Shown: positions 16,228 to 30,075 of the stretch, piece by piece
Position numbering within the stretch: position 1 is the stretch's first letter
Layout of the letters: each line of letters opens with the position of its first letter
Made by a program: the position numbers and the translations under genes
Notes under the pieces: model-generated
What the model was told of the DNA's origin: nothing
What the model saw: only the letters and a program-made list of their open reading frames with translations
Databases searched by the model: none
DNA from: a virus
IMG/VR virus record: IMGVR_UViG_3300032893_000051
Span: 1 to 57,818 of that record
DNA length: 57,818 nucleotides
Reading direction: 5' to 3' (one strand)

Positions 16228-16524
16228 CTATTCGTGGGAGCGTCGCTTGTGGACCGAGAGAGCGCGCTTGCTCCCGAATTTCTTTCCGCAGCAGGAAAAC
16301 GGTCCCGGCTTCAGCGGCTTGGGACCATCGTTAGGCTTCTCTTCGTAGGGAATTTCCTTCATCCAACCGATGTTAATGCAGGACTGAAGCGCCACTGGAT
16401 GCCACGGCGACACATCCCAGATCTTCGTACCGGCCCTGACGATCTGACCTTTTACGTTCAGATCGCGCAGGGCCAGGTAAAGTTTCTTATGGATGCTGGA
16501 GGACGTTGTAGCCGAATGCTCCAA
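16228..16524 (-). CDS. Small C2H2-zinc-finger-like protein in the head cluster
   Basis: A 98-residue protein. Residues about 1-55 hold LYLALRDLNVKGQIVRAGTK and WDVSPWHPVALQSCINIGW, a short beta-domain of unknown function. The C-terminus has FSCCGKKFGSKRALSVHKRR followed by SHE, which aligns with a classical zinc finger (C..C, F, L, H...H) except that the two residues between the cysteines are missing. The ATG lies 38 bases inside the capsid gene end. The protein may bind nucleic acid or stabilise the connector; this is not known. Confidence 0.65.
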   Translation of the reverse strand: MEHSATTSSSIHKKLYLALRDLNVKGQIVRAGTKIWDVSPWHPVALQSCINIGWMKEIPYEEKPNDGPKPLKPGPFSCCGKKFGSKRALSVHKRRSHE

Positions 16525-17488
16525 GGTTCGCTCCTACCAGCTTCATGTCGAAGGACATTTCGCCCTCTACGCGGTCCGCCTTCAGCTGCTCCATGCGGAA
16601 CACCATGATGCGGTTGCCCTGGGCGCCGGCTCCGAACAGACCCTGCCAGGAGAAGATATACCCTCCCGTGGGTTGCAAGATGCTGGGCGCGGGGTTCGCG
16701 TACACCAGAAGGAACGTATTCTGGGTCAGGTACGAGTACGTTCCCGTGTTGGGCGGAACGGTTTCCGGGGCCGTGTTGCTGATGACCGAGGAGACCAGGA
16801 ACTTCTCCACTCCGAAGAGCGAAGCCAAGAGCTCCTCCGACACCACGCCACGCTGGGTATACTTGATGCGGTCTAGCACGGTCGGGTTGTTCCGAAGTGC
16901 GAAGAACACATCATTGGATACCACCAGCGTGTTCGGCAGGAAGCCGGTCTGGCTTTTGATTTCCTGCTTCAGGAAGTCGATGTCGGCCATGGGATTCGAG
17001 GTCGTCGAGTCCCAGTATCCGTCACCGTTGACGTTCGGCTGGAAGTCCGTCGGGCTTCCCGACACCAGATACCCCTGCCAGATGCCCGTCTGCATGTACT
17101 TCTTCACGAACTGGATCTCGCGTCGAAGTAGCAGCTGCTGGGTCACGAATAACGTCGCATCCCGATCGAGATCGAGAGGCTGGTCGGCGTTCGCGCGGGT
17201 CTGATCGTCGACGTCCTTGTGGACCGCCCAGACGTCGGCGAAGTACGTCGGGGTGTTGTCCAGATCGAACCCTGAACCCGCGGACTCCGTTGCCGGAGCG
17301 CGGACCTGGGCTTGGGTCTGGAACCAGTACCCCTGATCGTAAATGAAGTACCGGTCGGACTGCTTCAAAACGGGCACGATCGGGAAGACCTTGTCCGCTA
17401 TGAAGTCCTGGGCCCGCTGGATATAAGCAATGGAGATGTTCGTCAGGGGCCGGTTGACGTGAACATCAGACCTAGTAGGTTGCGGCAT
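16487..17488 (-). CDS. Major capsid protein
   Basis: A 333-residue protein with the pattern of HK97-fold capsid proteins found in small myoviruses (NISIAYIQRAQDFIADKVFP, then FALRNNPTVLDRIKYTQRGV, SEELLASLFGVEKFLVSSVI). It lies between the decoration protein and the connector genes and has no long N-terminal delta domain, in keeping with the separate scaffold-like gene upstream. The start is preceded by an AGGGGGA region. Confidence 0.85.
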   Translation of the reverse strand: MPQPTRSDVHVNRPLTNISIAYIQRAQDFIADKVFPIVPVLKQSDRYFIYDQGYWFQTQAQVRAPATESAGSGFDLDNTPTYFADVWAVHKDVDDQTRANADQPLDLDRDATLFVTQQLLLRREIQFVKKYMQTGIWQGYLVSGSPTDFQPNVNGDGYWDSTTSNPMADIDFLKQEIKSQTGFLPNTLVVSNDVFFALRNNPTVLDRIKYTQRGVVSEELLASLFGVEKFLVSSVISNTAPETVPPNTGTYSYLTQNTFLLVYANPAPSILQPTGGYIFSWQGLFGAGAQGNRIMVFRMEQLKADRVEGEMSFDMKLVGANLGAFGYNVLQHP

Positions 17489-17501: not shown

Positions 17502-17900
17502 TTATTTCTTACCAAGGTTTACGAGCAGCACCGGGAGGATGTCCCCAGCGACGCCGGCGTCGAGTGCGATACCGACCTGGTAGTTACCAGTGGTCGCAGT
17601 GATCAGACCGCCGGACGGCGTCGACATCAGCGTGTCGCCGATGGCTACCGTTCCGTTGACCTTGCACTTCGACACGCCCTCGGTGAAAATCTGCCCTGCC
17701 TCAGCAAGCTGAGGATTGTTCTGCAGGATTCCGACGATCGGCTCGCCCGTCGATCCCGGAGGAGCGCAGGCCACTGGGGTATTAATCCCAGAGCCGGTCG
17801 CGGCTACGGCGATGACTGGCGTAAACAGGTACGTCGACTCGGACGACATGTCCTGGTTAGCCGGCAGAGACCACGAAAATACAGGAATTTCCCAAGCCAT
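17502..17900 (-). CDS. Capsid decoration protein (DUF2190-like)
   Basis: A 132-residue protein with a Gly/Ala-rich beta pattern (VAIGDTLMSTPSGGLITATT, GVAGDILPVLLVNLG) as in DUF2190 and related head-decoration or head-fibre bases. Gene order scaffold, decoration, capsid is standard. It follows the scaffold-like gene by two bases on the upstream side. Confidence 0.65.
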   Translation of the reverse strand: MAWEIPVFSWSLPANQDMSSESTYLFTPVIAVAATGSGINTPVACAPPGSTGEPIVGILQNNPQLAEAGQIFTEGVSKCKVNGTVAIGDTLMSTPSGGLITATTGNYQVGIALDAGVAGDILPVLLVNLGKK

Positions 17901-17902
17901 TG

Positions 17903-19273
17903 TTAGCCCCTCCTCTGAGACGGATGACCCGAGAGGTACTGATTGTACATCTGCTTACCTTCGGGAGTGTCTAGGAACCGCTCGACTGCGGCTTCCTTGC
18001 TCAACTTCTCGCCGCTCTTTTGGACCTGGGCCATCGCGGCACTTTCGATCTTCGCGTACCAGTCTCCGGCGACGCCCTCTCGATCGGAGCCGACCTCTGA
18101 GAACAGAGAGCCTTTCGCGATCTGCTCGTCGGCCGCGAGAATCATCTTCTCGACCTTCTCGAACTGATCGGGGGCTTTCTCGGACAAAACCTGCATTGTC
18201 TCCACAAGGTCCTCGACCTTCACTCCCAGACCTTTCAGGTGGGAGTACTTCTGGATGAGTTCCTTGCGGTACGCCGTTTTCTTCACCAGGGCCAGCTCGC
18301 GGGCTAGATTCTGGTTGCTCTTGAAGACTTCCTCCACGGCCGCACGCGTTTCCTTCGGCACGTTGGCCAGGAGAGACTTCATGACGCTAGACTTGCAAAC
18401 GTCATCTCCGTCCATATCGTCGGCCTCCTTCTTTTTCGAAACCATGTCTTCCGGCTCCGGGTTGTGCATGTTGCCGGACTGGATTTCGCCCTGTCCGGGT
18501 TCGTCACGCACGACCTTGCCTTTATCCCCGTAGTTGCCTTCCATGTCCTTCTGAGTCGGCTGCTGCGTGGGATACTTTCGGTAGCCAAGCTTGTGCATGT
18601 GCTCCTTGTACGCCCCGAAAGCTTTCCCGAGAGCCTCCATGTGGTGCTCTTCGGAGATAGGCTCCGGGGACTGGGTCGCAGACCCCATTTTTTTGTCCAT
18701 GTCTTCTCCTTGGTATTGTTCCGTAGCGTGCTGCATCTGCAAGCCCGCAGCACTCAGCACTTCGTGAAGAAGCACCGGCGAAAGAGAGTCTTTAAACGGG
18801 GTCAGAATCCGGACCACCGCCTTTAGGGCGGACTGGGCGCGCTCGTCGACCGGACCCACGTCATTCAAATCTTTTTCGACATCCATCTTGTCCGCCCTTT
18901 CCTTCAGGGCAGGGTATTTTCTGTATACCGCCGCCTGTACCTTTTTCTTTTCCTCGGGAGTTCCGTGCTGAGCGACACGGGCCAGCGCGTTTCTGGCGTG
19001 TGCCAGGTCGTGAATCGGATATTTCCTCTCAGCGGGCAGAGCGAAGTTGTGCTCGGCGATGTGCTTTCGGCCCTCGGCCGTCAGGTCATCCTTTCGGACG
19101 GTGGAGTACTTGCGAATCACTTCCTCCACTTTCGCGTCCACTGGCTTGAGCATCTCCTTGATGTCCTCTTCCCTCATTGCGGCGCCGGATTTGAGCACAA
19201 GGAATTTCCTTCGGTTGGCTCCCCGGGGAACCAAGCTAATTTCTCGTGCGTCGAGGTTGCTTAGTTTCTTCAC
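17903..19273 (-). CDS. Scaffold-like capsid assembly protein with DUF6582-type segment
   Basis: A 456-residue charged, helical protein. The N-terminus (NLDAREISLVPRGANRRKFL) is the sequence usually found at the C-terminal end of phage prohead proteases of the XkdF type, so protease and scaffold appear to have been re-cut here. Residues about 60-130 (LTAEGRKHIAEHNFALPAER, then HDLAHARNALARVAQHG) fit DUF6582. The last 170 residues are a helical region like scaffold proteins (KVEDLVETMQVLSEKAP, KEAAVERFLDTPEGKQMYNQ). It should guide assembly of the shell and be removed or cleaved during maturation. Confidence 0.7.
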   Translation of the reverse strand: MKKLSNLDAREISLVPRGANRRKFLVLKSGAAMREEDIKEMLKPVDAKVEEVIRKYSTVRKDDLTAEGRKHIAEHNFALPAERKYPIHDLAHARNALARVAQHGTPEEKKKVQAAVYRKYPALKERADKMDVEKDLNDVGPVDERAQSALKAVVRILTPFKDSLSPVLLHEVLSAAGLQMQHATEQYQGEDMDKKMGSATQSPEPISEEHHMEALGKAFGAYKEHMHKLGYRKYPTQQPTQKDMEGNYGDKGKVVRDEPGQGEIQSGNMHNPEPEDMVSKKKEADDMDGDDVCKSSVMKSLLANVPKETRAAVEEVFKSNQNLARELALVKKTAYRKELIQKYSHLKGLGVKVEDLVETMQVLSEKAPDQFEKVEKMILAADEQIAKGSLFSEVGSDREGVAGDWYAKIESAAMAQVQKSGEKLSKEAAVERFLDTPEGKQMYNQYLSGHPSQRRG

Positions 19274-19377: not shown

Positions 19378-22188
19378 TTACGACCTGACACCAAGTCCCC
19401 CCACCGACACGCCCTGGTACTCCCCGTCCAACACTTTTCGCCACTCTTTCGGGTCCAGGATCTTGATCGCTATGACCCAGGAACCTTGCTTCACGGTTTG
19501 GGGTCCGTAGGGCCCCTCGTTCCACTCCAGGTCCTGCGGCACTATGTAGGATTCGACGGGCACCGCCTCTATTTCTTCCTCGTGGTTTTTCCCAACCATT
19601 CGGGAGCTTATCAGGTAGTTGTGCGCCGCTTCCTCGATATCCTCGGGGGTCATCCAATCGTCCTGTTCGTCGAGCTCCTCGGGGGCTAACACTACGCAGT
19701 AAATGATCTGCTTTTTTATGTCGGCCTTCTTGATCGGACAGATCTTCCGCACCCACTTCGTCAGCTCTGGGTATCGGTTGTAGATCGCGTTCTTTACGAT
19801 CTCCTCGTCGGTGGTTCCGGAGGATTGCCGAAGCGACTCCATGGCTTTTTCGAGGGTCTCCATCGGATAGGCCATTCGATCCGGCACAGCGTAGTTCTCG
19901 TTGCCGATGAGTTCAGCGGGTTTCGCATCCAGCATAGGCTGGGACTCCTGCGCTTCCTCTGAGAGAAACCGGTGGAAATCCCCCTGGAACTTCTCAAAGT
20001 CCGGCACCAGCTCCTCGGTCGACGGGTGCACGCCCTCGCCCTGTTCCTCGAGCAGAAATCGGATGAAGTTTTCTCCAAAGTTCGACAGCGCCTGGTCTAG
20101 ATCTCCGATCTCGTGCTTTTCTATTTCGCTGCCGGCCCCGGGCTGCTGTCCGGCGACTATCACTTTGTCATCGGAGTGCTCCTGCTGCCGAGAGACTAAA
20201 GAGCCCTGGCTCGGGTATCCGTGAACGCGATTACCCCGTCCGGAGCTCGTGGCGTCGCTCCAGGTGTAGCCGAGAGCGTCCATCGCCAGTAGTGCGTCTG
20301 CAGGGAGCATGTCATATTGGGCAATCCCGATTCTCGGCTCCGAATCGTTCGACGTGGAAGCATCGGGGACCGCCACTCCAGTGAACCGCTGGCGAAAGCT
20401 CGGCTGCCCCTCTATCTTCTGGACATCCTCGTTTGTTTCATGACCGGTGAGGACGAGCCGTGGGAACTCCTTCGTCCAGTCGGGGTAGTTGTAGATGTCG
20501 TTCGGGCCCTCATAGGTGAATTGCCCTCCTGGCATGAGCACGCGCTGAATCTCCGACAGTAGAGCCTTCTGGTCCTGTTTTTCCAGATCCTGTAGCCCAT
20601 CGCGGAGTCGCACATTTCGGACGCTCCTGTCTGGTAAAGGAATTCCGGTTGTAAGATCGTGAACCACGGTGCCGTAGTCGTAGGGGTAGACGTCAAATCC
20701 CACGTAGCCGGGCATCCGCGCCTGCCCGCTCATCAAATCTATATTCAGCCCCACCGGCCAGTTGGATGTGGATTCTTCTTCGTTTTCGAGAGTGTCCTTG
20801 TTAATTTCCGGGTTATGCTCGATCGCCAACGCATCGCTGGTGTCTACTGTTTCGATTCGCTTTTTCCGATAGTAGTCTGGGTCGTCCTCGAGGTGACTTA
20901 TGGCAAGCTCCTTCGCCTCCTCGCCAACGCTCGTCGTGTGCTCCATTTCCCAGTCGATTCCTGAGACGATTTGCTCCATGCCGTACAAATCCGACGCATC
21001 CTGGTTGTCGCCGGCCACGTAGTTCTTCAGACACTCGCCGTACTTTTCCGCCACGGAAAAAAGCCCCAGTCCCCCAAATTCCTTCAGCACTTCAGCTTCC
21101 AGATTGTTCACGCTCGGGGGCTCTACCTGAGAACTACGGCTCCGGTCAGTCGAGGTAGGCGGAGTCCCCTGCGGCTCGACCTTTCGCTGAAACGGCTGCT
21201 TTTTCTCGTCCTGTGGAGGGGAGGGAACGTGGACGTCCGAGCCCCCTGGCTGAGCTTTGGAGATCTCTGGAAAGTTCCTTCTGAGATGGTCCTTTAGGCC
21301 CGGGTGCGTTTCCATTATCGACATCGTCTCCTCCGGAGTAAAAACTCTCGCCGGCAGCTGCTTTTTCCCAGTCTTTATGGCTTTGTGCATGCGGTGGTGC
21401 CCGTCAATCAGTAGGTATCGAATCCCCTCCTGCGTGGGAATCGAGGCAATGAAAACGGGGTTTTTGGACTTCGATCCCATCGCCGCCTGCTCGTCGACGT
21501 GTATCTTGTCACTCCACGCGGGATCCACGGGGACCTTGGCGTTGTGCTTTTTGCCGGCAAGGTCTCGCGCCTTGTCGATGTCGAAAATCATCGACCCTAT
21601 GACGAACTTCTCCGCGTCCGAGCCGTCACGGACAGTCCCACCGAGGACGTCGGGCAGCGAGCGGTAGATGTTCTCTGGGGTGACGTCCGGGGCAACGCCC
21701 TCGACTGGCTCCGGATCGGATTTTCCGACTTCTCCTGTGGCTTCACCCGTATTCCTACCGACACGCACCGCACGGTCATCCCATAGCTCCTTCATGTGGT
21801 GATCCTTGACGTTGGTGACTTCCAGCCTGGGAAGCCCCTGCGCCTCGAGCCAGTCCTGGATTTTCTTTACGTTGCCTTTTTTCCCAGCGCGCGCGGTGAA
21901 AACCTTTACGTTCTCGCCCTTCGACAGCCAGTCCTTCACCCGGTTGACCATGGGTCCAACGGCTTGGCCGATGTGGTCGTCGCCTTTGTACCCATCGTAA
22001 TGGGCTAGCGTTCCGTCCAGATCGACTCCGATCCAGGAGTCCATTTTCTTCTTCTTGGTTTCTACCTTCTCTGGAAGGTCCATCCCGCGGCTCGCGCGGT
22101 CGTATTCCCGAACGGTCTTTTTGGGGATATCCCCGCGGGCCTCGGCTGCGTGAAAGAATCGACGCTGTGCTTCCGAAACGTACGGCAT
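19378..22188 (-). CDS. 936-residue multidomain head protein: HAD, ParB-like, DUF5661, methyltransferase-like, XkdF
   Basis: I chose the ATG at 22188 (MPYVSEAQRRFFHAAEARGD, a widespread phage N-terminal motif) because it has a GGAGG site and forms TAATG with the upstream stop. Domains by residue: HAD-like phosphatase at about 49-145 (VDLDGTL, FTARAG, ELWDDRAV); ParB/sulfiredoxin-like at about 190-295 (LLIDGHHRMHKA); DUF5661-like at about 365-445 (ELAISHLEDDPDYY); SAM-methyltransferase-like at about 475-600 (LNIDLMSG, GFDVYPY, EIQRVLMPGGQF); XkdF-type prohead-protease domain at about 810-936 (PEELDEQDDWMTPEDIEEAA). The C-terminal domain fits the position before the scaffold gene; the joined enzyme domains are most unusual and may be carried into the capsid or released by processing. 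Confidence 0.75.
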   Translation of the reverse strand: MPYVSEAQRRFFHAAEARGDIPKKTVREYDRASRGMDLPEKVETKKKKMDSWIGVDLDGTLAHYDGYKGDDHIGQAVGPMVNRVKDWLSKGENVKVFTARAGKKGNVKKIQDWLEAQGLPRLEVTNVKDHHMKELWDDRAVRVGRNTGEATGEVGKSDPEPVEGVAPDVTPENIYRSLPDVLGGTVRDGSDAEKFVIGSMIFDIDKARDLAGKKHNAKVPVDPAWSDKIHVDEQAAMGSKSKNPVFIASIPTQEGIRYLLIDGHHRMHKAIKTGKKQLPARVFTPEETMSIMETHPGLKDHLRRNFPEISKAQPGGSDVHVPSPPQDEKKQPFQRKVEPQGTPPTSTDRSRSSQVEPPSVNNLEAEVLKEFGGLGLFSVAEKYGECLKNYVAGDNQDASDLYGMEQIVSGIDWEMEHTTSVGEEAKELAISHLEDDPDYYRKKRIETVDTSDALAIEHNPEINKDTLENEEESTSNWPVGLNIDLMSGQARMPGYVGFDVYPYDYGTVVHDLTTGIPLPDRSVRNVRLRDGLQDLEKQDQKALLSEIQRVLMPGGQFTYEGPNDIYNYPDWTKEFPRLVLTGHETNEDVQKIEGQPSFRQRFTGVAVPDASTSNDSEPRIGIAQYDMLPADALLAMDALGYTWSDATSSGRGNRVHGYPSQGSLVSRQQEHSDDKVIVAGQQPGAGSEIEKHEIGDLDQALSNFGENFIRFLLEEQGEGVHPSTEELVPDFEKFQGDFHRFLSEEAQESQPMLDAKPAELIGNENYAVPDRMAYPMETLEKAMESLRQSSGTTDEEIVKNAIYNRYPELTKWVRKICPIKKADIKKQIIYCVVLAPEELDEQDDWMTPEDIEEAAHNYLISSRMVGKNHEEEIEAVPVESYIVPQDLEWNEGPYGPQTVKQGSWVIAIKILDPKEWRKVLDGEYQGVSVGGLGVRS

Positions 22189-23066
22189 TAAGCCTCCGAA
22201 ATCTCGATGGTCAGTATGCACTCGCAGTTAGGGTGAAGCGGAGGGCCATCCACTCCGGCCGAGAACTGGTCGTGCAGTCCGACGGATTCACCATCAAGCT
22301 CCGTGCACTCTGGGCACGGGTTGCCGTCCACCTGCCAGACCTTCTGAGAGCCTTGCCCAATCAGCCCCTCGGCTGCGGCAGCCTGCCAAACTAATTGCTG
22401 CCCCTGATTCTGAACGGCCTGCGTCTCGGTCTTCGCTATCATCTTAGCACGGTAGTCGAGCAGCCTGTCATGGTACTGGTCCACAAGCTTATCTATCCTA
22501 GTTCTGGGCAGCCCCTGCGACTCTAGGGTCGATTGGTAGTTGATCAGCGCTGTGGCCTGCTGTGGGTAGAGTCCGATCATGGGCTTGATCAGCCGAGCCA
22601 TCGTGGGCACTGGAATCGACTCACGGAGCTGTTTCTCCACAGCCTGCTGGATGACTTTCCGGGCATCGGTGCTGATGTCGGTGACGAGCCTTCCCGTTCT
22701 GCGGTCAACGTAGTCCTGTATTCTCCGGTTCTTTAGGTCAAATCTCAAATTCTTATCTGCCTGTGCCGGCAGCGGGGCTAGATCGGAAAACTCTCCCATG
22801 GACCTAGCCATATGCGCGCGGTATTGGTCCAACTCGTCGGGCAGCTCGCTCCAGGGAACGAGTGAGTAAATTGAGTTGTAGTTTCCCGACAACCACGCGT
22901 CCGACAAAGTTTTCTCGCTGATCTTTTTCTTGAAGGACTTTATCCCAGACAAAAAGTCCACGCGCGCGGCCTGGGACATCGTATTCGTCAGCGCCCGCAC
23001 CCGAGCGGTAGTCCTACGGTACGTTTTTCTGGGAGCCGCCTTCTGAACTGTGGAGAAGATGATCAC
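22188..23066 (-). CDS. Phage head morphogenesis protein (Mu gpF-like)
   Basis: A 292-residue protein whose C-terminus has the family signature: MIAKTETQAVQNQGQQLVWQ, then CPECTELDGE and LHPNCECILTIEI, the paired cysteines of the Mu F-like minor head domain. The N-terminal part is helical. It follows the portal and Cys-rich genes and is expected to be a minor head protein next to the portal. Coupled upstream by ATGA. Confidence 0.85.
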   Translation of the reverse strand: MIIFSTVQKAAPRKTYRRTTARVRALTNTMSQAARVDFLSGIKSFKKKISEKTLSDAWLSGNYNSIYSLVPWSELPDELDQYRAHMARSMGEFSDLAPLPAQADKNLRFDLKNRRIQDYVDRRTGRLVTDISTDARKVIQQAVEKQLRESIPVPTMARLIKPMIGLYPQQATALINYQSTLESQGLPRTRIDKLVDQYHDRLLDYRAKMIAKTETQAVQNQGQQLVWQAAAAEGLIGQGSQKVWQVDGNPCPECTELDGESVGLHDQFSAGVDGPPLHPNCECILTIEISEA

Positions 23067-23278
23067 GGCTTGAACTGCTCCATGTCCAGGAAGTCCTTAT
23101 GTATCCCGCACATGTCCGGATCCTCGCAGCAGGAGTTCAGTACGCGATCGCACCGCAGGCAGACCTTCACGATGTGGAAGCGGCACTCCGGCATGTCCGG
23201 CCTGTGCCACTTGGACTCCTTGCAGCCCTCTCGTACACATTGGGTAATCTGATGATGTTGCTCCATCAAAGTACGCAT
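23063..23278 (-). CDS. Small Cys/His-rich protein between portal and head morphogenesis genes
   Basis: About 71 residues if started at the ATG at 23278, six bases after the portal stop; an in-frame start at 23326 would overlap the portal gene by 43 bases. Eight cysteines and several histidines (ECRFHIVKVCLRCDRVLNSC, then CEDPDMCGIHKD) suggest a zinc-binding module. Function unknown. The stop overlaps the next start as ATGA. Confidence 0.6.
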   Translation of the reverse strand: MRTLMEQHHQITQCVREGCKESKWHRPDMPECRFHIVKVCLRCDRVLNSCCEDPDMCGIHKDFLDMEQFKP

Positions 23279-23283
23279 ACGCC

Positions 23284-24960
23284 CTAGTAGTTGAAGTTGA
23301 TCCGCTTCCGGTCTCTTTCGGCCCATTCGGTTTCCCTTCCGTTGTTTCGGTAGGTATCCCGCTCTGTGTTGGCCTGCGGATTGGTTTTGAAGTTCGTGGA
23401 CGGGTTCTGAGGAGCCACGTCCGTCTGAGTAATCGGGTTATTGTTACCCAGGGCGTTCGCCTCTGTATAGACCGCAGACGTCGCAGGCTTTTGGTTCACC
23501 GGCGTGGTGTCCGCAGGGAGGGTTAGCCCCGTCGGCGTCTGCACGGGCACGCCTGGGATCTCCACCACTTTCTGCGGGATCTCGGGTTCTTTCAGCTCGA
23601 CCTGCATCGACTCCATGCTCATCGGATCCGAGGGCTCGGGCATGTTGCCAACCTTCATCAGGTACTTCTCTAGGTCGAGATTTGGGAACAGCGGGAATCC
23701 GGAGATCGCTAGGTTTTTGATGTACTCGCCGAGTTCCTTGAGATCCACGGACATCAGATCGCCGTGGGTAATTTTGGGGTAGTCGGAAATGGCAAAGTCG
23801 TTTAGGGCGAACAGTCTGGGAATCGCATAGTTGTTGAAAATGTCGGCGATGATGTCCAGCTGTCCGCCTATTGCGGTGGAGAACAGGTTCGTCTTCGACG
23901 AGGCGAGCGCGTAGCTTCCGACCTTGTCCTGTCCCATGAGCATAAAGTCCGCCACCATCGTCATCGCGATTCTCTGGTCGTAGCGGTTTATTATTTTGTC
24001 CGTGTCGAACTGGCGCTGGCCGCCGGTGGAGAGGAGTTTTAGTTCGAACAGTTCCTTTCCGACAGTGTCGTATGCCTTCGGAAAGATGACGCCTTCCTGT
24101 GCGTCTCGTCGGATGTTGATGACGATATCCCGAATGGACGCTAGCAAGTTCTTCTGCGACTGGCTGGCTCCCTCGGTCAGCAGCTCGGGCGGTACGAGTG
24201 CCACTGGAAGACCGGCGAGATCGCGCTCCACTCCGATCGCCTCGATGTTCTCTATGTTCTTCTTCATGTACCAGGGGCGGTACGCGTTTCTCAGAAGTGA
24301 TTTACCTTCGGGGTTATTCTTTTCGGTGGTGGTCCGAAAGAGGAGCATTTTTTCGATGGGGATGGTGACGTGGTAGTAGTGAGGCGGGGCGAGCTGCTCG
24401 ACGCCTTGGATACCGCCGTGATCGTCAAATTGCCATCGATAAATTGTATCTTGTGACCGAATCGGAAACTTGCGCCATCCGATCCTTCCGTCACTGTACT
24501 TCGATCGCATGGTCGGATCGAAAACGTCACCGCACCGCCTTTTGTAAATGATCTCGTGGACCGAGTATCCGTACCCCAGCATTGAGAGAATCGCGTCGAT
24601 GGTGTCCACCCAGGTGTCGGACATGTCGTTCATGCAGGTCTCGACGAACTCGGCCGCCTCCTCGTCATTGGGGTGGGCCGACGCCGGGGTAACCCGCCAC
24701 GGTACTCGACGACAGAGCATCTTGATCGCGAAGATGATGCCGCCGACCGTGGGGTCGTTGTTCAGCATCTCCTTGAAGACCTGAACGCCCTTCCATCCGG
24801 TCAGCTCGAGAAGGAATTCCTCGAAGATAAATCCGGAGAACCTGCGCAGACCGGTCGCCCCGACCTCGCGCATGTCGACAACTTTTGTCTCCGCTCCAGT
24901 AAGCATCTGGCCGATCGTGGCCTTGCGAACTGGCTCCTTGGGTCCGGATTTCTTAGCCAT
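23284..24960 (-). CDS. Portal protein (DUF935, Mu gp29-like)
   Basis: A 558-residue protein with the DUF935 pattern: FKEMLNNDPTVGGIIFAIKM, then LSMLGYGYSVHEIIYKRRCG, GKSLLRNAYRPWYMKKNIEN and NRYDQRIAMTMVADFMLMGQ. It forms the dodecameric channel at the capsid vertex and binds the terminase. The C-terminal 100 residues are Pro/Thr/Asn-rich and probably disordered. The ATG forms TAATG with the upstream stop. Confidence 0.9.
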   Translation of the reverse strand: MAKKSGPKEPVRKATIGQMLTGAETKVVDMREVGATGLRRFSGFIFEEFLLELTGWKGVQVFKEMLNNDPTVGGIIFAIKMLCRRVPWRVTPASAHPNDEEAAEFVETCMNDMSDTWVDTIDAILSMLGYGYSVHEIIYKRRCGDVFDPTMRSKYSDGRIGWRKFPIRSQDTIYRWQFDDHGGIQGVEQLAPPHYYHVTIPIEKMLLFRTTTEKNNPEGKSLLRNAYRPWYMKKNIENIEAIGVERDLAGLPVALVPPELLTEGASQSQKNLLASIRDIVINIRRDAQEGVIFPKAYDTVGKELFELKLLSTGGQRQFDTDKIINRYDQRIAMTMVADFMLMGQDKVGSYALASSKTNLFSTAIGGQLDIIADIFNNYAIPRLFALNDFAISDYPKITHGDLMSVDLKELGEYIKNLAISGFPLFPNLDLEKYLMKVGNMPEPSDPMSMESMQVELKEPEIPQKVVEIPGVPVQTPTGLTLPADTTPVNQKPATSAVYTEANALGNNNPITQTDVAPQNPSTNFKTNPQANTERDTYRNNGRETEWAERDRKRINFNY

Positions 24961-26745: not shown

Positions 26746-27191
26746 CAGTCCATCCACCAGTTAGTTCCGTCCGAGGACACCCAAGTAACGCTGCCGTACG
26801 GAGTCGTGTACTTTTTGCTCGCGGCCAAACCCTCCAGCGTCTCAGAAGCGTGCTGCACGAAAGTGATGTTGGGCGCTCCGGATATGTCCTTCACGATGAA
26901 GGTTCTGCCAGTAGTTGCCGCGGGCATGGTGATATTTATTGCGGACGTCGTGTTTACGAAAATAGCGTAGTCCGTGGTCGTGGTGTCGACAGTGAGGCTT
27001 CCGGTGATCGTTCTGGTTGTGACACTCCAACCGCCGTTCGCCTGGTTCACACCGGTTCCGCCGCTCACGCCGATGATCGCGGGCACGAAGATGTACGCTG
27101 CTGGGCCGGGATTCCAAATGATGGGCGGGTTAGGCGGAGTGAGTCCCGCGAGCGCCACGCTGGAGAGCAATGAGAGAAGAAGCATCCTCAT
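26745..27191 (-). CDS. Secreted fibre-like protein, small
   Basis: A 148-residue protein with a signal peptide (MRMLLLSLLSSVALAG) and a beta domain (NITMPAATTGRTFIVKDISG, then YTTPYGSVTWVSSDGTNWW) of the kind that ends many phage fibre proteins. The ATG overlaps the upstream stop as ATGA. Probably part of the same exported fibre complex as its neighbours. Confidence 0.65.
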   Translation of the reverse strand: MRMLLLSLLSSVALAGLTPPNPPIIWNPGPAAYIFVPAIIGVSGGTGVNQANGGWSVTTRTITGSLTVDTTTTDYAIFVNTTSAINITMPAATTGRTFIVKDISGAPNITFVQHASETLEGLAASKKYTTPYGSVTWVSSDGTNWWMD

Positions 27192-28705
27192 TTGTAAAAC
27201 GTCATGTTGACGCTCCCGGTGGTGATGTTCGCGGTCTTCGCCTGGAACCCTAGGCAGTTGCCGGACGGGATCATGAAGTCCTTACCGCCGCCTCCGGCGC
27301 TGACGATGATCGCGTTGGATGAAGTGGACAGGGCTCCGCACGTGGCGGCGTAGGCAAGGTAATAGTCCGAACCGGAGGAATCGAAGATGTCTATCTCATT
27401 TATCGCGGCGCTGGTGGAGCTGATGATCGTGGTGAACGAGCTCGTCGACAGATTCGCCGAGGAATAGCTTTGAGTGAAAGTCGATAGAACTCCTCTCCCG
27501 CTTCCGGCGTTAGCCGTTACAGCTCCAGAAATCGGCTGCGTCACCCCGCTTCCATCCACCCGCAGGGCGCCAGCGGTCGTCAGGGACAGCGGATTCGTCT
27601 TCGCAGTGACGTACGTGGGCGCGGACGTAGTGACTGCGCCCTGAACAATCGGCCCCGACTGCCCTGAGGTCGTGCTCCCCTGCGCTAGTAGAATCCCGTT
27701 CACGCTCGTGTCCAGCGCCAGCGCCGACGTGTTGAGGTTCGTTCCAGCATTTGCCGTGACCGTCCATGATCCCCCCTGATTGGCAGTCACGGTCCCGGAG
27801 ACAACCCACGGGGAAGTCGACTGCGTCACTCCTATTGTCGATGGAAAATTTGAGACAGCTACGGAGTCGGTGCCGCTATTCAGGGTCCACGTGCGGCCCG
27901 TCGTCCATGCTCCCGATTGAACCGCAGCCACTGAATCCGTCGCATTGCTCAGAGTCCACGTCCTGCCCGTCGTCCACGAACCCCCCTGGAATGAGGTAAT
28001 TTGGTCCGATGTAGTCAGGGCACGGATTTGCGTCGGGTCCACATAGCTCGACCCATTGGAGATCTGCACCGCTAGTGGGTTCGTCGAGGATGGGGCCGAT
28101 CCCAAGACTTGGGTAATGTTTATCGATTGCGTGGCAGGAAAGTTGGATACCAAAGCAGAGACAGAATCCGAGCCACTTGAGAGAGTCCATGTTCTCCCCG
28201 TGCTTCCCGAGATTGGTTGAGTCGTCGTTCCGGTCGGGTCGATCCGGAGCGGATTCGAAGGAGTACCTAGTAATACTGTACCATCGGTCAACTCAACGGG
28301 CCATCCGTTGGCGAGCGTGTTCGGCGTTCCCTGATTGGCTGTGAAGGCCCCAGGGAAGGACGACACAGCCACCAGCAGGTTTCCGGAGCCGTCCAGACTC
28401 AGGCCGGTCAGAGTGCCAGATTGATTCCCTGCGATGTAGGTTCCGCTGTTCGGCACGGCGCTTCCGGTTGGTCCAACGCTGGCGTTGCTGCCACTACCAC
28501 CACCGGTCGTAATGAGCTCGCCGCTCGCGTCCACGGCCACGGGGAGGAAGGTGTCTCCGTACAGCCCCATCATCGGGTAGCCAAGGCTCTGGAGTAATTT
28601 CCCATCCCCGGGATCGATGCCTATCTGCCCCTGGTCCCCGCGGTAGACAGTGTAGGACCCAAAACACAGAGCCGGGAAAAGTAACGCGAGAATGATTCGC
28701 TTCAT
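27188..28705 (-). CDS. Secreted fibre-like repeat protein
   Basis: A 505-residue protein beginning MKRIILALLFPALCFG, a clear signal peptide. The middle has three copies of GRTWTLxxxxDSVxA and several NQGGSWTV-like strands, a repeat style of beta-structured shaft proteins; the C-terminal 120 residues are non-repetitive (NEIDIFDSSGSDYYLAYAA). The ATG at 28705 overlaps the terminase stop as ATGA. Its place between terminase and portal is unusual for a fibre gene. Confidence 0.7.
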   Translation of the reverse strand: MKRIILALLFPALCFGSYTVYRGDQGQIGIDPGDGKLLQSLGYPMMGLYGDTFLPVAVDASGELITTGGGSGSNASVGPTGSAVPNSGTYIAGNQSGTLTGLSLDGSGNLLVAVSSFPGAFTANQGTPNTLANGWPVELTDGTVLLGTPSNPLRIDPTGTTTQPISGSTGRTWTLSSGSDSVSALVSNFPATQSINITQVLGSAPSSTNPLAVQISNGSSYVDPTQIRALTTSDQITSFQGGSWTTGRTWTLSNATDSVAAVQSGAWTTGRTWTLNSGTDSVAVSNFPSTIGVTQSTSPWVVSGTVTANQGGSWTVTANAGTNLNTSALALDTSVNGILLAQGSTTSGQSGPIVQGAVTTSAPTYVTAKTNPLSLTTAGALRVDGSGVTQPISGAVTANAGSGRGVLSTFTQSYSSANLSTSSFTTIISSTSAAINEIDIFDSSGSDYYLAYAATCGALSTSSNAIIVSAGGGGKDFMIPSGNCLGFQAKTANITTGSVNMTFYK

Positions 28706-30075
28706 CGTATCCACTTACTCGCTCCAGTGAGGCTGACGGGCTTCCAGTTAGTGGGCATTCCGGTTGACAGCTCGGAGATTGCCTGGGTCGATGCGTCCAC
28801 CTGATCGTCGTTCTTCCCGTTTGGAAATTCTGCCCATTCCTGTACGTAGTCTCCTATCCATGGTGCCAGGGATGGATCCGGAATCCAAACGTTTCCTGAC
28901 TCTATCTGCGGGGATACAGCCTGGGCGCGGAGTTCCTTTGACCCTTTGGGGCGTATGGGGACAATGCCGGCGATTTCGCGTTTGAGGGTGTCGATCAGGG
29001 CCGCGCCGTTTGCCGCTTCCTCCACGCACTTCTTACCGGCGTTCGGGTATCTGGCAGACAAAGTACGAAAGGCGCCTATGGTGTCCGTGAAAGAAAGACG
29101 CGCGCGTATCTGGTCGATCAGGTACTTATCGGCGCCAACCTTCCCCCACACCTGCCCCACGACGTAGTCGGTCGATGCGCCTTCCTTGAAGGTAAGGTCC
29201 CACGACGAAATCATCAGGTCCATTTGCGGGAGAGTCTTGTAGTACTTCCACCAGTGCCGCTTGACGATATTCCCTTCCTGCGGGCTCGGGCGTTGCTGGT
29301 AGAGAGCCTCGAAGTCCTGGCTTCCGATCGTCTTCTTGGTTTGCAGAAGAGTGTCGATGTCGAATCGCTCTGGCCACAGAGCCTTTCCCTCTTCGTCGAT
29401 CGCGGGCATCGAGAGGATTTCCCAGTCGTTCCCTTGCGTGTCGATCAAGTGCGCCGGCAGATCCTTGTCGGACCAGCGAGTTTGAATCAGCACGATCTTT
29501 CCGCCTGGCGCGAGTCGCGTGTAGAGCACAGAGCCGAACCAGTCTTTTATTTCCTTCAGAATCGGCTCGGAGTTCGCTTCCTGACGGTTCTTATGTATAT
29601 CGTCGATAATAATCAGATTCGCTCCGCGGGACGTAAGCGGACCTTTCGCTCCGACTGCGTAGTACGCGCCGCCTTGCTTGGTGTTGAATCGGTGAGCGGC
29701 GAGCGACTCGGGATTTAATTCTAGCTCTGGGAAGATCGCTTTGTAGTCCGGCGTGGTCATCAGCGCGCGGGTTTTCCGTCCAAAATCGGATGCTACTTCC
29801 TGCGAATACGTCGTGGATATCACTTCGTGGCTCGGGTGCCGGCCCATGTACCACGAGGGAAGTAGGGCATTCACCATTCTGGACTTCCCGTGCCGAGGAG
29901 GCGCGTAGATCATCAGCCGCATAATATCCCCGCGTTCTAGCGCCTCGATTCTGCGGACCATGCGGACGATATGGTTGGGAGTCTGGTAGTCGTCGTCCAT
30001 AACAGCAGCGTAGGAAAGTAAATCGTTCCGCGCCCATTGCTGTACGGCTATTTGTATTTCACTACGATGCTGCAT
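28702..30075 (-). CDS. terL: Terminase large subunit
   Basis: A 457-residue protein with an ATPase domain (Walker A YAPPRHGKSRM at about 56-66; Walker B LIIIDDIHK) and a C-terminal RNase-H-like nuclease (MISSWDLTFKEGASTDYVVG, CVEEAANGAALIDTLKREI, KNDDQVDASTQAISEL). It packages DNA through the portal. It follows the small subunit, separated only by a small zinc-ribbon gene with which it overlaps by 28 bases. Confidence 0.92.
   Translation of the reverse strand: MQHRSEIQIAVQQWARNDLLSYAAVMDDDYQTPNHIVRMVRRIEALERGDIMRLMIYAPPRHGKSRMVNALLPSWYMGRHPSHEVISTTYSQEVASDFGRKTRALMTTPDYKAIFPELELNPESLAAHRFNTKQGGAYYAVGAKGPLTSRGANLIIIDDIHKNRQEANSEPILKEIKDWFGSVLYTRLAPGGKIVLIQTRWSDKDLPAHLIDTQGNDWEILSMPAIDEEGKALWPERFDIDTLLQTKKTIGSQDFEALYQQRPSPQEGNIVKRHWWKYYKTLPQMDLMISSWDLTFKEGASTDYVVGQVWGKVGADKYLIDQIRARLSFTDTIGAFRTLSARYPNAGKKCVEEAANGAALIDTLKREIAGIVPIRPKGSKELRAQAVSPQIESGNVWIPDPSLAPWIGDYVQEWAEFPNGKNDDQVDASTQAISELSTGMPTNWKPVSLTGASKWIR

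Follow-up and report, generated by a model that had tools for sequence, protein, structure and literature searches.

An XkdF-type capsid-maturation protease with N-terminal enzyme-like modules in a metagenomic phage, and a proposal for protease-borne cargo

Background

In phage T4, gp21 processes internal proteins with capsid-targeting peptides, which are then injected (PMC9026906), and in phage P1 the prohead protease cleaves DarA, which is anchored within the head (PMC12810830); phage SPN3US is a further precedent for this kind of mechanism (PMC10052503). Polyvalent proteins have been described with metallopeptidase processing, and XkdF is absent from the main text of that paper (PMC5512222). 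For the Pseudomonas phage KPP23, virion mass spectrometry is available (PMC4031330); the small XkdF, MuF and scaffold proteins are all missing from the listed virion proteins, a result that is silent on cargo.

Here we describe a 936-residue protein encoded in the head operon of a virus (IMG/VR record IMGVR_UViG_3300032893_000051, positions 1 to 57,818; this whole stretch of 57,818 nucleotides is referred to as the window). All features of the window given below are on the minus strand.

Sequence analysis and collection of relatives

The fusion ORF was examined by reading frame, SD sequence, codon pattern and domain searches. An AF2 model was used for residues 150-936 (787 residues), with the HAD domain left out. 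Querying viral contigs with the full-length 936-aa protein gave no relative; relatives were gathered via portal, capsid-protein and XkdF-profile searches and from named phages, and are given by locus number (L) where needed.

Head operon of the window

Profile searches identified a Mu-type portal protein (23284-24960), a MuF head-morphogenesis protein (22188-23066), a scaffold-type protein of 456 aa (17903-19273), a cement/decoration protein (17502-17900) and an E-type major capsid protein (phrog_1005; 16487-17488), whose N-arm MPQPTRSDVHVNRPLTNISIAYIQ (17417-17488) was recognized by sequence comparison. The fusion ORF (19378-22188) lies between the MuF and scaffold genes; the order portal-MuF-XkdF-scaffold-cement-capsid is nearly constant among relatives. 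The MuF domain is outside the fusion chain, in its own gene, which sets the protein apart from MuF toxins. A small cysteine-rich ORF (87 aa; 23063-23326) lies between the portal and MuF genes, and a protein of 508 aa that contains repeats of the GRTWTLSSGSDSV type (27188-28714) is encoded near the head genes.

Properties of the fusion protein

The bounds of the ORF are exact, with an ATG at 22188, an end at 19378 and no internal stop. The ATG is preceded by TTCGGAGGCTTA, a good ribosome-binding site, and overlaps the TAA stop of the MuF gene; the codon-position GC pattern is uniform over the full frame of 936 codons. The order of modules is SEAQRR start, HAD, ParB-like, capsid-arm-like linker, DUF5661, methyltransferase, YDML element, DUF6582-like and XkdF, and the long linkers were modelled by AF2 at low confidence. 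In joining two or more modules of disparate activity within a single head-operon polypeptide, the protein shares a trait of polyvalent proteins.

The N-terminal segment MPYVSEAQRRFFHAAEARGDI (residues 1-48; 22045-22188) is shared with L020 only (phmmer 5e-7). The HAD phosphatase-like domain that follows (about residues 49-150; 21739-22044) matches phrog_1238 (3e-8) and phrog_415 (1.5e-7) and has all four catalytic motifs of HAD hydrolases intact (DLDGT, TAR, K, DD); phmmer against the PDB gave no match for this module. The module is absent from every other member of the set of relatives; it also opens gp273 of Tunturiibacter phage Tunturi_5 (E 4e-20), and its homologs are often small separate genes near replication or nucleotide-metabolism genes. 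Tunturi_5 is a cultivated soil phage, and its gp273 (L187:7803-12272; 1489 aa, with HAD, NUDIX, three ART-PolyVal and GNAT domains) is annotated as MutT/NUDIX hydrolase only.

The ParB/Srx-like domain (residues 184-304; 21277-21639) carries a DGHHR motif, matches phrog_17560 (2.5e-6) and TIGR00180 (0.003), and was modelled with an AF2 pLDDT of mostly 74-94; homologous modules are present in L014, L036 and L062. The DUF5661-like domain (residues 404-442; 20863-20979; E 7.5e-6) is helical in the AF2 model, and its score of 26.6 bits is just under the gathering cut-off of 27. A class-I SAM methyltransferase-fold domain (about residues 473-607; 20368-20772) was assigned by profile and fold: the Methyltransf_11 score is below cut-off in the window (20.2 vs 21.2 bits) and above it in many relatives, and the AF2 model (150-936) resembles SAM methyltransferases (Z 9.8). 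When the whole 787-residue model, with the ParB-like and DUF5661 domains as parts of it, was compared by Foldseek (PDB) and VIA-align, the matches listed were of methyltransferase type only. Motif I of the methyltransferase reads DLMSG in the window and DLGSG in relatives; activity of the window domain is doubtful because of this glycine substitution, and SAM binding may have been lost.

Sequence comparison revealed a conserved 70-residue element, EPRIGIAQYDMLPADALLAMDALGY..SDATSSGRGNRVHGYPSQG (residues 630-700; 20089-20301), which 11 proteins of the set share in strongly conserved form (EPRIGIAQYDMLPADALLAMDALGY...SGRGNRVHGYPSQG); one of them (L038) has no methyltransferase. A DUF6582-like helical segment (about residues 765-812; 19753-19896) was detected by phmmer (0.0012 here, 6e-6 in L013), and occurs also in the scaffold protein.

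The first-pass annotation had read the protein as a join of HAD, ParB-like, DUF5661, methyltransferase-like and XkdF domains, which was borne out by segment-wise profile searches; all five were recovered, two of them just below cut-off. The wording of four extra enzymatic modules was too strong: three have an enzyme-type fold, whereas DUF5661 is helical and we know of no enzymatic role for it. Nor has a protease gene been replaced, as had been supposed, since the protease is present as the C-terminal domain of the 936-aa chain.

Protease domain and displaced strand

The XkdF (Peptidase_S78_2) protease domain (residues 819-933; 19390-19734) matches PF14550 with E 2.3e-29 and 102.4 bits, against a gathering score of 24. 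Residues H856, H869, E879 and S928 are kept and are invariant or nearly so; H869, E879 and S928 are those of the presumed active site, and across 86 relatives its His is conserved in 100% and its Ser in 98%. The fold of the family was compared on a model of L165 (Bacillus, class I), not on the window domain itself, and resembles that of T4 gp21 (5jbl; Z 9.1) and of the HCMV protease (Z 4.9); in the same model, the N-terminal EVSYV-type segment forms a confident strand.

This EVSxVxxxAN strand of the PBSX type is not in the XkdF chain of the window, and is found at the start of the next gene, whose scaffold-type product opens with EISLVPRGANRRKF and carries DUF6582; the segment EISLVPRGANRRKFLV (19196-19252) corresponds to positions 1-41 of phrog_3017. 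The strand stands before XkdF in the same chain in phrog_3017, and after XkdF in psiM2. The next ORF had been described as beginning with a sequence from the end of such proteases and the gene boundary as re-cut in this phage. The next ORF does start with LDAREISLVPRGANRRKF; the motif, however, is N-terminal in the Bacillus-type XkdF, not at its end, and the next gene starts with EVSLVxxGAN at 61 of 81 comparable loci, so that the split between strand and XkdF belongs to the clade and not to the window phage alone.

Relatives and their cargo

A total of 133 distinct XkdF proteins were collected, of which 38 belong to class I, 86 to class II, and nine to neither cleanly. Class I, in which one polypeptide unites strand, XkdF and scaffold, is found mainly in prophages of Firmicutes. 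In class II, XkdF is at the extreme C-terminus (15 residues or fewer after it) and the N-terminus is free, with an extension of 0-1546 aa of other modules; at least 150 aa precede XkdF in 68 proteins, at least 300 aa in 50, and at least 900 aa in 12. The fusion architecture is widespread in the lineage, and not a one-off replacement as first assumed.

The modules in front of XkdF stand in 32 different orders among the 58 complete class II proteins with at least 150 aa in front, and comprise uracil-DNA glycosylase (UDG; the commonest single cargo, 27/86), DNA ligase, LigD phosphoesterase, NTase, NUDIX, GNAT, D12 methylase, ParB of three kinds, histidine phosphatase, 2H phosphoesterase, ChaB and a metallo-beta-lactamase fold; the UDG, NUDIX and ligase modules gave strong scores. 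Within the set, cargo never occurs apart from the head-operon protease, and it is frequently exchanged at this fixed place; capsid proteins can be 60-81% identical to that of the window and yet be accompanied by quite different cargo. Similar joins are found on independent contigs (L013, L014, L016, L017, L062 and others).

A long type with NTase, methyltransferase, DNA ligase, UDG and LigD phosphoesterase in front of XkdF (L096:1363-6351, L087:2632-6351, L094, L113, L092 and L103) resembles a DNA-repair kit, and reaches 1662 aa with a D12 methylase. In one member (L052:1953-3401), a counter-defence enzyme is joined to the head protease: besides a ParB-like module, the XkdF gene encodes an Acb1 anti-CBASS domain (PF23474, E 2.4e-32). 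Two linker peptides recur, KGGPGSG(P/R) in L016, L020, L021, L036, L038, L066, L072 and L085, and RDExGRF in L018 and L073. XkdF proteases are labelled 'DNA methyltransferase' in L006:3878-4927 (Lactococcus phage 56701), in PAK_P1-like and rV5-like phages and in phrog_1530; the matched part is the protease domain, and the label is probably a spreading misannotation, which suggests that many XkdF genes so labelled are mislabelled.

Capsid-arm-like linkers

The linker QPGGSDVHVPSP behind the ParB-like domain (residues 313-324; 21217-21252) mimics the capsid N-arm, as found by sequence comparison: QPGGSDVHVP in the linker corresponds to QPTRSDVHVN in the major capsid protein of the window. Capsid proteins of the group begin with MPQPTRSDVHVNRPLTNIS, the window linker reads KAQPGGSDVHVPSPP, and the arm-like linkers of relatives read KGQPTSSDVHVNAPLG, KKAQPAGSDVHVNQPLG, KSQPTSSQVHVP and the like. 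With an HMM built from capsid N-arms alone, cargo linkers were among the top non-capsid matches, the window linker with a weak score. A strict motif was found in 19 of 79 cargo regions vs 3 of 2378 other ORFs (shuffle mean 0.12; Fisher 6e-27, a value that overstates independence because the proteins are related). The arm mimic cannot be the sole loading signal, for the strict pattern is absent in 60 of the 79 cargo regions; these include the ligase-UDG type, for which other loading routes, e.g. protease-scaffold contact, must exist.

Linker and capsid arm of the window are identical in 8 of 14 residues and in one codon; since the codons differ, the resemblance has been maintained in the amino-acid sequence, and a recent DNA copying of the capsid-gene start into the linker was rejected. 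Two scaffolds (L073, L122) also contain the arm peptide, as does an ORF upstream in L082; most scaffolds are without the motif. Shared by the capsid arm, 19 of 79 cargo linkers and two scaffolds, the peptide may be a signal for docking on the capsid or for processing. By eye, the L082 ORF resembled an ADP-ribosyltransferase; Pfam gave no match, and this assignment was dropped. In L023:2428-4323, the XkdF position is taken by a Mu-I-type protease/scaffold gene, which likewise encodes a close copy of the arm (SEPSGSSVHANGPLG).

Interpretation of the locus

The exchange of enzymes at one site among dozens of phages suggests loading into the head and delivery to the host. The reading we favour, with somewhat better than even confidence, is that the 936-aa protein is an XkdF capsid-maturation protease with enzyme cargo at its N-terminus, which would be packaged, processed and probably injected. 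The protein would enter the prohead via its protease/scaffold part; in the window phage, the capsid-arm-like linker may also attach to the shell in the manner of a capsid-targeting sequence, or may be a cleavage site. At maturation, the gp21-like protease domain would cut the scaffold and release the cargo modules. The HAD, ParB-like and methyltransferase modules would then accompany the DNA into the next host, where nucleotides, nucleic acid or defence signals could be their targets. That cargo is packaged within the protease chain, freed and injected is proposed by analogy to T4, SPN3US and P1 DarA; a search of open-licence papers for virion proteomics of any cargo-bearing member found none. 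In favour of this reading are the kept catalytic residues, the gp21-like family fold, the C-terminal position of XkdF, cargo of a kind suited to delivery (among it Acb1), its exchange at a fixed place in a nearly constant gene order, the capsid-arm-like linkers and the occurrence of the HAD module in the Tunturi_5 protein. Against it weigh the KPP23 virion list, the 60 of 79 cargo regions that lack the strict arm motif, the DLMSG substitution, the lack of the motif in most scaffolds and the restriction of the HAD module, within the set, to the window.

More tentatively, and at a little less than even confidence, a widespread delivery system may be envisaged, in which the protease is the carrier of swappable cassettes (anti-CBASS, base-excision and ligation repair, NTP-processing and protein-modifying enzymes) that would dock by arm mimicry, release themselves and be injected with the DNA.

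Within the favoured reading, the VHV motif might be a substrate site of the capsid protease only, and no docking signal. Its occurrence in the capsid N-arm as well as in cargo linkers, the near-copy in L023, a phage with a Mu-I-type protease, and the longer N-termini ahead of the motif in the capsid proteins of L052 and L053 would suit a cleavage site; in most capsid proteins, however, the motif is 2-3 residues from the N-terminus, where a cut removes almost nothing, and most scaffolds, which must be processed, are without it. That the L082 upstream ORF and the L073 and L122 scaffolds contain it also counts against a substrate site, which we regard as possible and on the unlikely side. Less probable still is that the enzymes are expressed late and work in the producing cell, e.g. 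in nucleotide or DNA modification during packaging, and that they are severed from the protease and stay out of the head; the fusion would merely coordinate expression or hold the enzymes near the packaging site. The separate small genes for HAD homologs by replication or nucleotide-metabolism genes, and the lack of XkdF peptides from KPP23 virions, agree with such a role, but the constant joining of cargo to the protease in the head operon of this set, the copying of the capsid arm in linkers, and Acb1 and ParB-type domains, which are useful at entry, argue against it.

The modules could also be a decaying propeptide, i.e. domains, once active, that have come to act as scaffold or spacer and are broken down and expelled in maturation. 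Propeptides of prohead proteases generally exit the head (PMC10052503), and the changed motif I (DLMSG) and the long low-confidence linkers of the AF2 model are in line with decay. The intact HAD motifs, the kept DGHHR of the ParB-like domain and the strong scores of UDG, NUDIX and ligase modules in relatives are not, and 32 module orders suit active use more than decay; we regard a propeptide as quite improbable. An artefact of assembly or gene calling, by which a missed stop or a chimeric contig had joined separate genes, has next to no probability: the window is one metagenomic contig, but its codon pattern is uniform and free of stops, and like joins with homologous junctions on the independent contigs named above contradict it.

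If the favoured reading is true, the N-termini of XkdF proteins would be a catalogue of the proteins that phages deliver at entry, and the NTase-methyltransferase-ligase-UDG-LigD phosphoesterase fusions, the most frequent of the long types, would amount to a repair kit packed into the virion. The family would also offer a genomic handle for new counter-defence domains, one member having an anti-CBASS enzyme, and the capsid-arm peptide would be a candidate tag to load proteins into phage heads.

Comparison with known systems

We infer that XkdF-tethered cargo is a variation on delivery by polyvalent proteins and T4 internal proteins; a description of cargo delivery borne by XkdF was not found in the open-licence papers searched. 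As in polyvalent proteins (Iyer et al. 2017, PMC5512222), many disparate enzyme domains are joined in a single head-operon protein, and the recurring ParB, GNAT, 2H and NUDIX types are shared with the fusion family; the window protein is tied to this kind through its HAD module, which starts the Tunturi_5 protein with ART-PolyVal, NUDIX and GNAT domains. Unlike in polyvalent proteins, there is no MPTase or ArdC-type hub domain (no Pfam match), which is common there and not obligatory, and the built-in protease is a capsid-maturation serine protease.

With the T4 internal proteins (PMC9026906), the locus has in common a protease of the gp21 type, a short recurring peptide that may be a packaging tag, and putative cargo for the next host; internal proteins and protease are separate genes in T4, whereas they form one chain here, with a tag that resembles the capsid N-arm. 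MuF-fused effectors and MuF polymorphic toxins (PMC5576092) likewise have a head protein that carries variable enzyme domains; here, in contrast, MuF is an intact separate gene, and it is the protease that bears the cargo, at its N-terminus.

The cultivated Pseudomonas siphophage KPP23 shares the gene order and the capsid N-arm (MKPTPGDVHVNRPL), and differs in its small XkdF of 236 aa without cargo modules. The PBSX-type XkdF (PF14550, phrog_3017) agrees with the window protein in its protease domain, its catalytic residues and its position within the head operon; EVSYV strand, XkdF and scaffold are one chain in the PBSX type, whereas in the window the gene that follows encodes strand and scaffold, and cargo stands at the N-terminus of the protease.
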